Source: a virus. From it: a stretch of DNA of 21,456 nt. This document shows positions 2,790-8,403 of the stretch, in pieces. A program made the position numbers and the translations under genes. Position 1 is the stretch's first letter. The number at the start of each line of letters is the position of its first letter. The DNA lies in the IMG/VR virus record IMGVR_UViG_3300044568_001844, positions 1 to 21,456 of that record, one strand, 5' to 3'. The notes under the pieces are model-generated. The model did no database searches. It was not told the DNA's origin and saw only the letters and a program-made list of their open reading frames with translations.

Positions 2790-3266
2790 CTAGTCGGTTT
2801 CGGTGAGTACATCGTACCAGTCAGGCCGATCGCTGACCTGCTGCAATTCGTAGGCCAACGCTGCCAGCGAGCCAGCCAGTGTGCCTATCTGCTCTGCAAC
2901 CTTCTTAATAGGTAGGTCGCGGTTTATCACTAGGGCGCTCAGAGCCTGTCCTACGGCTTCATGTTGCTTGTTCCAGACAGCCACAACGTCGTCAGCCTGC
3001 TTAGCGCTGACCGTGTAATCTACGTCAGCGTGCTTGCTGGCAACTCGGCGTGAGCCATTTAGTCCATCCGTTCTGTCGATGGTCCAAAGGACCGGATACG
3101 AGCCGTCCAGCTGCACGACCGAGCCAGCGTCGCGCAGGGCGACCCTCACAGAATTATGAGAGCGCCCTACGAGAGCTGCTACGTCAGCAGTCGTGGCAGG
3201 TTGCCCGATACTTGCCAGTGCTTCGCGCACCTGAAACTTGAGCCTGTCGCTCACGTAAACGGTCAT
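2790..3266 (-). CDS. Winged-helix DNA-binding-like protein
   Basis: A 158-aa protein. Residues about 8-65 look like a winged helix: QVREALASIGQPATTADVAA then LVGRSHNSVRVAL as recognition helix, then a wing ending YPVLWTI. The C-terminal half is helical (residues 85-145) with no recognised domain. The frame extends upstream to a TTG at 3290, but the ATG at 3266 is far better. It has AAGGAGAGAACG just upstream and overlaps the TGA of the preceding gene (ATGA). It could regulate the leftward operon or act in DNA replication. The fold is likely; the function is unknown. Confidence 0.72.
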   Translation of the reverse strand: MTVYVSDRLKFQVREALASIGQPATTADVAALVGRSHNSVRVALRDAGSVVQLDGSYPVLWTIDRTDGLNGSRRVASKHADVDYTVSAKQADDVVAVWNKQHEAVGQALSALVINRDLPIKKVAEQIGTLAGSLAALAYELQQVSDRPDWYDVLTETD

Positions 3267-3454
3267 TCGTTCTCTCCTTCGTGTGTCCAATACTTGTTCG
3301 AGCAGTCAAGGCACATGCCCAATTCTTCAGTGTGAATATCTGAGTCGATTGGCACGCCGCAGTGATCGCACGGCGTAGTGGCGGCTTGCTTGCCTATTAG
3401 TAGGCGTGGATCGAATCCCCCATCGGGAGAGACTCGGTTAGTGATTTCGTTCAT
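3263..3454 (-). CDS. Small zinc-ribbon protein
   Basis: A 63-aa protein with two Cys-x2-Cys knuckles, TPCDHCG (about 29-32) and GMCLDCS (about 48-51), spaced as in a compact zinc ribbon. The ATG at 3454-3452 has GAAAGGACAACGC in front. It overlaps the stop of the gene before it and the start of the gene after it (ATGA at both ends). Small zinc ribbons are common in phage early operons. No specific function can be assigned. Confidence 0.72.
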   Translation of the reverse strand: MNEITNRVSPDGGFDPRLLIGKQAATTPCDHCGVPIDSDIHTEELGMCLDCSNKYWTHEGENE

Positions 3455-3905: not shown

Positions 3906-4412
3906 TTAGTCTCGGTCTGTCTTGAAGTCGAGCAGCTGGCAGAACGTGGTGACGAAACGCTCGGCGATGACGTAAAGCGCAAACCCGGCTTGCTGGTTCA
4001 TGTCCGAATTCTCGTCTACCCAGACTTCGATGTCTTCGTTATACGCGCACAGGTCTACGAACGTCTCCCAAATGTCGTGCGTGTAGATGGGTAGCGCTTC
4101 GTTCGCTACTTGGTTTACGTCGAGCGGCTCGTCGTTGTTGTTGAGCCATTCGAGAATGTAGTAGCGCAGGTCGTCGAGCAGCTCAGCGCCCTTGCTACTG
4201 AGTGACGAAGGTGAAGCGCTGTCGATGATGCTCGCCATGTAGTAGGCGTTGATGCTTTTCAGCCATGCCTGCCGCGCGTCGATCGTGGAGTCTGCCACGG
4301 CTACTGAGCACAGCCAATCTGCCGGGCTCTGGTAACGCACGTGCCCGCACAGATCGCATACGCCCACGGTGTCGCCGAAGCGGTGGTCAAGGTTTGTTTC
4401 TGTCGTTGTCAT
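3906..4412 (-). CDS. Hypothetical acidic protein, first gene of the leftward operon
   Basis: A 168-aa acidic protein. A Cys-Asp-Leu-Cys knuckle (VGVCDLCGHVRY) sits near the N-terminus and could be half a zinc site. The remainder is helical, with no recognised family. I choose the ATG at 4412 over an upstream TTG at 4454 because the TTG lies in the hairpin-rich leader and gives an unlike N-terminus; neither start has a strong Shine-Dalgarno. It is the first gene after the promoter-like element at 4474-4484, with a leader of about 58 bases. Confidence 0.7.
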   Translation of the reverse strand: MTTTETNLDHRFGDTVGVCDLCGHVRYQSPADWLCSVAVADSTIDARQAWLKSINAYYMASIIDSASPSSLSSKGAELLDDLRYYILEWLNNNDEPLDVNQVANEALPIYTHDIWETFVDLCAYNEDIEVWVDENSDMNQQAGFALYVIAERFVTTFCQLLDFKTDRD

Positions 4413-4438
4413 GTCGGTTTCTTTCTGTGTCGTCCTAC

Positions 4439-4467
4439 CGGCTAAGCCGTGCAAGCCCGGATGGGCT
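4439..4467 (-). other. Two small hairpins in the mRNA leader
   Basis: Within the predicted leader of the 168-aa gene lie AGCCC/GGGCT (4454-4467, loop GGAT on the plus strand) and CGGC/GCCG (4439-4449, loop TAA). The first starts about 10 bases after the -10-like box. They may stabilise the 5' end, as similar hairpins follow the other leftward promoters. Confidence 0.4.
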
Positions 4468-4473
4468 CACGCA

Positions 4474-4490
4474 ATTAGTGTACCACTAAT
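4474..4490 (-). promoter_or_regulatory. Leftward promoter within a pseudo-palindrome
   Basis: The minus strand reads GTGGTACACTAAT, a TG-extended -10 of the recurrent family. The element lies in ATTAGTG-TAC-CACTAAT (4474-4490), an imperfect 17-base palindrome, so it may double as an operator. It would drive the large leftward operon (4412 down to 44). The usual -35 position falls on the GCACATATT repeats just upstream. Confidence 0.55.
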
Positions 4491-4494
4491 GCGC

Positions 4495-4572
4495 GCACAT
4501 ATTGTGCACATATTCCAAAACTAATGCAAAAAAAGTTTTGCCCCGAGTTTCCGGTACATATGTGCACATATG
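4495..4572. repeat. Iteron-like GCACATAT repeats with 16-bp palindrome
   Basis: GCACATATT occurs at 4495-4503 and 4506-4514 (11-base period). GTACATATG occurs at 4554-4562 and GCACATATG at 4564-4572 (10-base period). The second pair forms a perfect 16-base palindrome, CATATGTGCACATATG (4557-4572). Between the pairs lie CAAAACT/AGTTTTG (4516-4522, 4534-4540), an inverted repeat; GTTTTGCCC is repeated at 4535 and 4594. The stretch is AT-rich and non-coding. It could be an operator for the leftward promoter or a replication-origin element. Sequence alone does not decide. Confidence 0.55.
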
Positions 4573-4885: not shown

Positions 4886-4915
4886 GCTAGCGCGGGATAG
4901 GGTTAGCGCGCTAGC
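4886..4915. repeat. 9-bp inverted repeat over the clamp gene stop
   Basis: GCTAGCGCG (4886-4894) and CGCGCTAGC (4907-4915) are exact inverted copies around 12 bases. The right arm lies in the last codons of the clamp-like gene, so the gene's end and a possible 3' RNA hairpin share sequence. Confidence 0.45.
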
Positions 4916-5547
4916 AAGTTTGGTTGAATCAGCAGCTCGATTGTGCTGAGCCCGTCTTTCGACTGCTGACTGCAGATCAGCGGCCCGGGCTTGTCACTCA
5001 GGCCGATTGTATTCTGCATACGCCACACGCCGAAGCGCTTAGCAGGTGTGAGCCCTGCATCGACAGGCAGCATCAACTTGGTGAGCGTAGCGAGCAGCTC
5101 AGCCCGGAATGACTGCGGCACGTGAGTTACGGGCTCGTCACTGAGTTCCGGGTATAGCCGGTCCATCGGCGGGAATTGACCGGCGATAGCCGTAGTCCCC
5201 ATAGAGTGACCGGAGCGCTCGTTAGAGATCGTGAGCACGTTGCCCTCGACAGTGAGCACATTCTCAGTAGCGAAGCGCTCTTTTTTGACCGTGGCATAGA
5301 AGCCGCTGAGCCATTTAGCCGGGAGCAGCGCGCTCACGTCGGGAGCGTCTACGGGAATAGTCAGGCGTGCCGCTTGGTAGCGGTCCGTCGAATACGCGCG
5401 TAGTTGACCGCCGGTAACGATTACCTGTATGCCAGTTAGCACGGGGGTTACGTCGGCGTTAGACGTGCAATTTGACAGGCTGGCAATAGCGCCCAACTCG
5501 TCGGTTGTGAGCGTGATCGATACGCGCTCGGTTGTGTCGGTTGTCAT
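4903..5547 (-). CDS. Sliding-clamp-like protein (DnaN-related)
   Basis: A 214-aa protein resembling part of the bacterial beta clamp. TPVLTGIQVIVTGG then AYSTDRYQAARLTIP matches the strand and TDRYRLA-type loop of a DnaN domain. IELLIQPN at the extreme C-terminus resembles the final strand of DnaN. Clamps tether the polymerase to DNA and form rings around it. DnaN has three domains in about 370 residues, whereas this protein has room for about two, closer to T4 gp45-sized clamps. ATG at 5547-5545 is preceded by weak AGAGAATGGG. The gene stands alone between its own promoter element and terminator. The clamp relation is likely; ring formation is inference. Confidence 0.72.
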   Translation of the reverse strand: MTTDTTERVSITLTTDELGAIASLSNCTSNADVTPVLTGIQVIVTGGQLRAYSTDRYQAARLTIPVDAPDVSALLPAKWLSGFYATVKKERFATENVLTVEGNVLTISNERSGHSMGTTAIAGQFPPMDRLYPELSDEPVTHVPQSFRAELLATLTKLMLPVDAGLTPAKRFGVWRMQNTIGLSDKPGPLICSQQSKDGLSTIELLIQPNLLAR

Positions 5548-5594: not shown

Positions 5595-5605
5595 ATTAGC
5601 GTACC
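5595..5605 (-). promoter_or_regulatory. Leftward promoter-like element for the clamp gene
   Basis: The minus strand reads GTGTGGTACGCTAATCATG, an exact copy of the 11-base consensus with an extended -10 TG. It lies about 50 bases before the clamp-gene start and downstream of the repeat at 5629-5657. Confidence 0.6.
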
Positions 5606-5628: not shown

Positions 5629-5657
5629 GCAGCCAGACAGTTCCACTTGTTTCCTAA
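5629..5657 (-). repeat. Upstream element with ACAAGTGG core
   Basis: The minus strand reads TTAGGAAACAAGTGGAACTG, then TCTGGCTGC. It shares 18-20 identical bases with the copy at 6491-6515. It sits between the terminator of the previous unit and the promoter element, 37 bases before GGTACGCTAAT. It may be an activator or repressor site. Confidence 0.65.
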
Positions 5658-6450: not shown

Positions 6451-6477
6451 ATTAGTGTACCACATGATTAGCGTACC
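6451..6477 (-). promoter_or_regulatory. Tandem leftward promoter-like elements for SSB
   Basis: Two copies sit 16 bases apart on the minus strand: GGTACGCTAAT (6477-6467) and TGGTACACTAAT (6461-6451). The nearer copy has the TG extension. This is the only place with two full copies, which fits strong or two-step expression of SSB. No consensus -35 is seen. Confidence 0.6.
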
Positions 6478-7241: not shown

Positions 7242-7252
7242 ATTAGCGTACC
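7242..7252 (-). promoter_or_regulatory. Leftward promoter-like element in the divergent region
   Basis: An exact GGTACGCTAAT on the minus strand. It is 53 bases before the 148-aa gene and about 75 bases from the rightward copy at 7328, making a divergent control region. An ACAAGTGG core (minus strand, 7294-7287) lies 33 bases upstream, as in the SSB and clamp units. Confidence 0.6.
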
Positions 7253-7327: not shown

Positions 7328-7338
7328 GGTACGCTAAA
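7328..7338 (+). promoter_or_regulatory. Rightward promoter-like element at the arm junction
   Basis: TATGGTACGCTAAAC contains TG-G-TACGCT, an extended -10 form. A transcript starting about 7 bases downstream would begin at or next to the ATG at 7342. That leaves a 15-base leader with AGGAG in front of the ATG at 7357. It is the likely start of the rightward arm. Confidence 0.6.
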
Positions 7339-7356: not shown

Positions 7357-7614
7357 ATGGCTACGAAGAAGGTTCTTGATGAACTAGATCCTGCTGGTGT
7401 GTCTGTGCCTACGACGGTAAAGAAGCCGGTTAGTAGGATGGGTGAGTATCCTCGGTACGCTCAGTCTGCGCATTATCAGGTTGAGGTTGGTGAGCCTGCG
7501 ACGGGGATTCCGGTTGCGCGGATTTCGCCTGTTGGTTGGGTGGGGATGCCGCCTTTGATTGTTCCGGAGTCTCGGATTGACGAACTTATTCAGCTTTTAA
7601 CGCAGGTACGCTAA
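7357..7614 (+). CDS. Hypothetical protein, first gene of the right arm
   Basis: An 85-aa protein of unknown function. It has a basic, Lys-rich start (MATKKVLDELDP), then about 30 residues with Pro/Gly/Val turns (GIPVARISPVGWVGMPPLIV), and ends in a helix (RIDELIQLLTQVR). Two in-frame starts exist. ATG 7357 has AAAGGAG 7 bases upstream and is preferred. ATG 7342 would only be used by a leaderless mRNA and adds five residues. Its stop overlaps the next start (TAATG). Confidence 0.68.
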   Translation: MATKKVLDELDPAGVSVPTTVKKPVSRMGEYPRYAQSAHYQVEVGEPATGIPVARISPVGWVGMPPLIVPESRIDELIQLLTQVR

Positions 7615-7615: not shown

Positions 7616-7886
7616 GGCGAAGTCGGATGAGATGATGGCGATTATGCGCCAGACTGCGTTGAAGTTTTTTCCGAAAGCGTTGAAGGTTGAGGTTGGTGCT
7701 TTGCCGATTCCTCACGTGATCCTCACTGTTGGTGACGTGTTGTGTGAGATTCGCGTGAGCGACAAGTATGACCTTGAGGCTTTCCAAGAGGAAGTGTGGT
7801 TTCAGTTTAAGAAGCTGCAAACGAGCCTTGACATGAATGACGTTTCGGAGACACCTGAGAAAGCGATAACCATTGACGACAACTAA
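7614..7886 (+). CDS. Hypothetical protein (90 aa)
   Basis: A 90-aa protein with no recognised family. It has a helical N-terminus (EMMAIMRQTALKFFPKALKV), a beta-like middle (PHVILTVGDVLCEIRVSD) and a helical, acidic C-terminus. The ATG shares its A with the stop of the 85-aa gene (TAATG), so it is translated by coupling rather than from its own ribosome-binding site. It overlaps the next gene by 14 bases. Confidence 0.66.
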   Translation: MAKSDEMMAIMRQTALKFFPKALKVEVGALPIPHVILTVGDVLCEIRVSDKYDLEAFQEEVWFQFKKLQTSLDMNDVSETPEKAITIDDN

Positions 7887-8403
7887 CCCCTTTACTTACC
7901 TGCGCAACAAGTCGGGTATGACGATGCGACAGTTCTGCGATTTTTACAAGTTTGCTAAGCAGACGCTGATCGGCATGGAAGCTGGCTTGTACCCGGAGTT
8001 GTCCGTGCGGATGCTGGAAACTGCGAAGGACTTGGGCAAGCGTTTTGACATTCGGATCGACGATGAGCTGATGGATGCTTACGGCACGGCTGATTTGCAG
8101 ACGGCTTACACGTGGTGGATTGATTCCGAACGTGGGAATGTAGTTCCGAGCATTCGTACGTACAACCCGGACCAGTGGACTGACAAGCTTTCCCCGATGC
8201 ACTTCTTTGTGAAGAACACGACGGGCAGCGCGCAGGGGTTTGCTAAGCAGTTGAAGATTCCCCCGGCTACGCTGATGCGTTATGCCACTGGCAAGCAGGC
8301 TGAGATGCCTTCCAGCATTGAGCGTGCGCTTCGCGCGATTGATTACCCTTACATGGCACAACTAATTACTAATCAAAGAAACTGGACAATAGATAATGAA
8401 TGA
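7873..8403 (+). CDS. Regulator-like protein with two HTH-like segments
   Basis: A 176-aa protein. Residues about 8-50 (RNKSGMTMRQFCDFYKFAKQ then TLIGMEAGLYPE) resemble a Cro/XRE helix-turn-helix. A second similar segment lies at about 125-160 (SAQGFAKQLKIPPATLMRYA then TGKQAEMPSSIERAL). Two such domains in one chain suggest a dimer-like reader of a repeated or inverted DNA site. The start is a TTG at 7873, within the end of the previous gene, with only a weak purine run upstream. It is a good candidate for a phage regulator that could bind the repeats in this genome; that link is inference. Confidence 0.66.
   Translation: MTTTNPFTYLRNKSGMTMRQFCDFYKFAKQTLIGMEAGLYPELSVRMLETAKDLGKRFDIRIDDELMDAYGTADLQTAYTWWIDSERGNVVPSIRTYNPDQWTDKLSPMHFFVKNTTGSAQGFAKQLKIPPATLMRYATGKQAEMPSSIERALRAIDYPYMAQLITNQRNWTIDNE

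Follow-up and report, generated by a model that had tools for sequence, protein, structure and literature searches.

Cooperative two-site operators joined by DNA loops are well known from lac, gal and lambda OL/OR, where the spacing between sites changes by whole helical turns. The element described here resembles them in having two copies of one site, one over a promoter and one upstream, with turn-wise spacing, but its spacing is very short (55-68 bp) with a phase of about 0.4 turn, and any looping is hypothetical here. The Apl sites of phage 186 lie at an early promoter of that phage and are direct repeats set one helical turn from each other (PMC7498355), an arrangement that the element shares. 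The settings differ, as Apl doubles as an excisionase and phage 186 is temperate, and the likeness drawn here is one of arrangement. In Cluster A mycobacteriophages (L5, Bxb1, Trixie), the repressor acts at Pleft and at 20-30 dispersed operator/stoperator sites (PMC6550527). As in that cluster, the present case concerns actinobacterial phages in which a phage regulator, proposed here, would act at an early leftward promoter (PMC6550527), and the sequences of sites and regulators vary between related phages, just as Cluster A specificities differ accordingly (PMC6550527). Cluster A phages, in contrast, are temperate, and their dispersed sites are asymmetric and mostly act by blocking elongation, whereas here the sites are confined to a single promoter, in two phased clusters. 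The two-site operator principle is known; what appears to be new is its phage-specific sequence in virulent-looking podoviruses.

The window, meaning the whole stretch of DNA analysed, is the entire 21,456-bp IMG/VR virus record IMGVR_UViG_3300044568_001844, probably a fragment of a larger genome. Its genes include an SU10/P22-like portal and capsid, a terminase, an SNF2-type helicase, an SSB and a sliding clamp, and they run leftward up to about 7.3 kb and mostly rightward beyond. Judged by its proteins, the phage is a podovirus related to Microbacterium phage Shocker, the closest isolate (50% identity in the portal, 47% in the helicase). Relatives were collected from viral contigs via the helicase; L006, L007, L008 and L030 show 73-77% identity, and many others about 55%. 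Direct searches with the clamp and first-gene proteins as queries and a scan of GTDB genomes returned no relatives. The group looks like one of actinobacterial podoviruses that are virulent by appearance. Arthrobacter phage Jasmine belongs to a phage set described as primarily lytic (PMC5513430); it is a more distant relative and carries a relative of the candidate regulator HTH1 (E 1e-9) and a similar -10, and in Cellulosimicrobium phage DS1 the element was not recognisable. Integrase and resolvase families (PF00589, PF00239) gave no match in ten relatives, the window itself being only a fragment. As the motif is also confined to one promoter, membership in Cluster A is not claimed.

The element occupies a gap that is bounded by the leftward gene (3906-4418, or -4454) on one side and by the sliding-clamp gene (4903-5547) on the other (Table 1). 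Two copies of GCACATATT at 4495-4503 and 4506-4514 are identical across 9 bases, and the distal pair GTACATATG/GCACATATG at 4554-4562 and 4564-4572 agrees in 8/9 bases. Two 9-base repeat pairs spaced by 10-11 bases, as claimed in the preliminary description, are therefore fully borne out for the near pair (9/9, 11 bp) and only approximately for the far pair (8/9, 10 bp); the separation of about 60 bases given there compares with 58 bp. The perfect 16-bp palindrome that it also reported is present as CATATGTGCACATATG at 4557-4572 and is the only gapless palindrome in the window with arms of at least 8; by itself it is unremarkable, because 0.3 such palindromes are expected per sequence of this length and composition. 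The remarkable part is rather the clustering. A search of the rest of the record, much as had been suggested, confined the four GTGCACATAT matches (at most 1 mismatch) to 79 bp at 4493-4571, with none elsewhere in the 21,456-bp record, and the reversed control of the pattern gave 0 matches record-wide. When the two sites of the window are compared, their best direct repeat has a shuffling p of 0.01-0.03. As an RNA hairpin the distal palindrome is not notable (z -0.6), and Rfam gave no family match. A search with the exact palindrome led to one unrelated contig that lacks the two-site layout: L005:1317-1332 is the sole other viral contig with the exact 16-mer, in a region dense in TTATATACATG-like repeats.

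Table 1 Features of the element and its surroundings in the window
Feature	Position	Strand	Remarks
Proximal site	4495..4514	-	ATATGTGC in two units at 11-bp spacing (GCACATATT on +); overlaps -35 region; first unit begins 31 bp before -10
Distal site	4554..4572	-	Two units 10 bp apart including perfect palindrome; begins 58 bp upstream of proximal site; counterpart in relatives
A/T-rich stretch	4515..4540	.	Between distal and proximal sites; counterpart at same place in L006, L007 and L030 (read by eye)
-10-like hexamer TACACT	4477..4482	-	Leftward promoter; inside motif GGTACACTAAT; aligns with TACCTT (L006) and TAGACT (L007)
Inverted repeat ATTAGTG-TAC-CACTAAT	4474..4490	.	7-bp arms, 3-bp spacer, spans -10; several arms of 7 expected by chance
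Long stem-loop	4606..4654	-	14+6 pairs, just upstream of distal site; -35.4 kcal/mol, z -8.3
Second terminator-like stem-loop	4844..4881	-	12-bp perfect arms; z -6.0
First gene of controlled operon	3906..4418	-	PHROG 4239, unknown function; alternative TTG start at 4454
HTH1, winged helix-turn-helix protein	2790..3290 (also given as 2790..3266)	-	In controlled operon; recognition helix HNSVRVALRD; candidate binder
HTH2, two HTH motifs	7873..8403	+	Rival binder
GGTACRCTAA, eight exact copies	33-42, 4475-4484, 5596-5605, 6452-6461, 6468-6477, 7243-7252, 7328-7337, 7605-7614		Motif

The leftward promoter that had been placed at 4474 stands in outline, with TACACT as its -10 and the near pair over its -35 region, and no consensus -35 was found there. 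The inverted repeat that spans the -10 is weak alone as a signal. Both stem-loops sit between the promoter and the clamp/SSB genes, and the longer one, whose GCTCCTTGATGGAGC stem is also found in relatives, probably serves to insulate the promoter against the clamp/SSB operon. A search with the hairpin as a DNA pattern returned only already-known contigs.

The same layout precedes the corresponding operon in L006, L007 and L030, with stem-loop, distal site, A/T-rich stretch, proximal site and -10 in this order (MAFFT alignment to the window for L006 and L007, direct reading for L030). The proximal site takes the same position in all three, as seen in an ungapped 50-bp alignment made by eye and, for L006 and L007, with MAFFT. 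The units themselves differ, with ATATGTGC in the window, AATATTGT in L006, CAATATTGT/ACATATTGTC in L007 and AATACTGT in L030. L006 and L007 have ATATTGT half-sites in common, TTGACA lies inside the proximal site of L007 and L030, and L030 carries three AATACTGT units exactly 10 bp apart together with its own 16-bp palindrome TTGACAGTACTGTCAA. A second clade (L010, L012, L014, L015, L020, L036) repeats the layout, and most of its members have a site that is bipartite, TTGMAA-N7-TTGMAA. In addition, L019 has a direct pair (p = 0.017), L032 an inverted 18-bp pair (p = 0.003) and Shocker a GAACTTGAA pair with 22-bp spacing at the proximal place, and no convincing repeat pair was seen in L011, L021 and L022. 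Apart from scattered matches with one to three mismatches, each phage's own motif occurs only at this promoter in the complete contigs examined at the stringency used. The preliminary description had named absence of conservation in relatives as a refutation; the architecture is conserved, the site sequence is not.

Just upstream of the proximal site, GACACGCCC(AC) is kept in L011, L012, L014, L015, L020 and L036; L010 has AACACGCCC in its place, and GACACGCCC was not seen in the window's clade. Beyond the two-site region, L010:4496-4720 and L011:3720-3940 contain a further stem-loop (GAGTCC...GGACTC) and a promoter of their own; in L010 the two-site region holds the pair, and the separate promoter is TTGACA-N17-TACGCT. 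This looks like the addition of an attenuator or the replacement of the original promoter.

Tested one genome at a time, the repeat pairs reach p values of 0.01 in the window, 0.0025 in L030, L012 and L015, 0.005 in L036, 0.007 in L014, 0.013 in L010, 0.08 in L007, 0.09 in L020 and 0.22 in L006; these single-genome tests are moderate, and the pairs of L006 and L007 are not significant alone. Across 12 phages, the distal and proximal sites of one genome match better than foreign pairings do (permutation p = 1e-5), a score that common local base composition could raise slightly. In the six-phage clade the true distal/proximal pairing ranks best of 720, and in the window's clade of four only 2 of 24 pairings score equally well, the true one included. 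In the window, L006, L007, L030, L012, L014, L015 and L036, the start of the proximal site precedes the -10 by 30-32 bp, in a partly hand-set register and with inferred -10s, those of L030 and L012 being placed by alignment. In motif register, the distal-to-proximal spacings are 58, 66, 67, 66, 57, 57, 56, 68, 68 and 55 bp, falling into two groups, 55-58 and 66-68 bp, that differ by about one helical turn; L019 has 79 bp. This phasing has p = 2e-4 with the hand-set register and 0.008 with objective automatic offsets, neither adjusted for shared ancestry, and its phase of about 0.4 turn is non-integer.

The element is best read as one that controls a promoter, because the site at -35 is fixed to the -10, a matching and phased site lies upstream, and a probably insulating terminator is present. 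From the DNA and its relatives, we put a probability of roughly 0.55 on a two-site operator of the early leftward promoter, used by a phage regulator, most likely HTH1, for cooperative shut-down. The same site is present twice at one promoter, one copy always lies at the same place over the core promoter, and the interval between copies changes by whole turns. The mechanism that follows is inferred, from binding and the identity of the binder to the direction of regulation and looping. The regulator, phage-encoded and dimeric (or higher), would bind the proximal repeats across the -35/spacer region and likewise the distal repeats, which lie about 58 bp further upstream; cooperation across the intervening A/T-rich DNA would shut the promoter down, activation being less likely. 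The regulator would most likely be the winged-HTH protein HTH1 of the same operon, which would then act on its own operon's promoter and time early expression through negative autoregulation, and regulator and sites would have changed specificity together, phage by phage. Of the cooperative operator with looping put forward in the preliminary description, the operator is supported by the conserved layout, pre-operon place and -10 distance and by the helical-turn steps; looping is only compatible with the data, as a phase of about 0.4 turn does not imply a simple same-face loop.

HTH1 is kept in the phages with the element and across the family, in Shocker as gp57. It found no name in Pfam or PHROGs; weak sequence matches to a LacI headpiece were rejected, as they probably reflect the HTH motif alone and the model is a winged HTH. 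That model (pLDDT 77) adds long C-terminal helices which could serve dimerisation. At positions 1, 2 and 6 the recognition helix reads H,N,V in the window, P,Q,Q in L006, R,Q,H in L007 and Y,E,Q in L030, Q at position 2 being common to L006 and L007, as are the ATATTGT half-sites. This variation may track that of the sites, which is suggestive only, with four sequences from one clade confounded by phylogeny. Alternatively, the same operator could be bound by HTH2, whose pair of HTH units might each recognise one half of a bipartite site such as that of the TTGMAA-N7-TTGMAA clade. HTH2 is likewise conserved in the family, and its confident model (pLDDT 96) resembles XRE/SinR-type repressors. 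Its recognition helices, however, are nearly constant, keeping AKQT and PPATL in the window, L006, L007 and L030, and a conserved motif would then be expected in place of the four different ones observed; its gene also lies outside the controlled operon. Binding by HTH2 is therefore unlikely, and HTH1 is the better candidate.

Regarding the direction of regulation, repression is favoured because the repeats reach into the -35/-10 spacer and TTGACA lies inside the L007 and L030 sites, so that those promoters look able to fire alone. The opposite case, in which RNA polymerase is brought to a weak -35 promoter by a regulator bound near -43 and -100, is conceivable because the window promoter is without a consensus -35; the rigid distance to the -10 would suit it, as would the 10-bp steps in distal position, since such steps are also typical of upstream activation. 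Given the spacer overlap and TTGACA, we consider it about as improbable as binding by HTH2. Less probable again is a replication origin, also raised in the preliminary description, with iterons around an A/T-rich unwinding region and a replication initiator acting on them. That reading would fit the direct repeats at 10-11 bp beside an A/T-rich middle, the adjoining SSB and sliding-clamp genes, a cumulative GC-skew minimum at 4069 in the window and the conservation of GACACGCCC between the sites in the second clade, but the element is locked at a fixed distance to the -10, has only 2-4 units, and none of the window proteins searched was recognised as an initiator. GC-skew minima track it inconsistently, the distance being small in the window, about 2 kb in L006 and Shocker, and large in L007 and L030. 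Least probable, and very much so, are a host transcription factor site or chance repeats. The window's own repeat score (p = 0.01-0.03) would leave room for them, but a host factor of fixed specificity poorly explains phage-specific sequences in a conserved layout, unless hosts differ, and the cross-phage pairing test speaks against chance. The element is probably a repressor site of known general type whose specificity has changed between phages.

A two-site operator of this kind would give the poorly studied actinobacterial podoviruses a defined regulatory element with a candidate regulator and about twelve naturally occurring variants of specificity. Confirmation of the regulator would make these a natural experiment in the co-change of a winged-HTH protein and its operator. 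The question raised is why seemingly non-lysogenising phages diversify an operator as temperate phages do. Perhaps, and this we hold to be a doubtful generalisation, virulent podoviruses rapidly diversify the operator "password" of their early switch and its cognate regulator within a fixed layout, as temperate immunity systems do. If true, this would point to a selective force other than lysogenic immunity, for instance the blocking of co-infecting relatives.

The GGTACACTAAT motif around the -10 recurs at further promoter-like places. GGTAMRCTAA (GGTACRCTAA) has eight exact copies in the window, each oriented with the local direction of transcription, and at most 1 mismatch allows 12 matches to GGTACRCTAA versus 1.9 expected; it is probably a shared -10 type promoter motif. 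GGTAAGCTAA is used in L006 and L007 too, with none in L030. Another motif, GGWAMCAAGTGG, lies upstream of several early genes, at 5654 and 6513 (minus strand) in the window and also in L006, L007 and L011.
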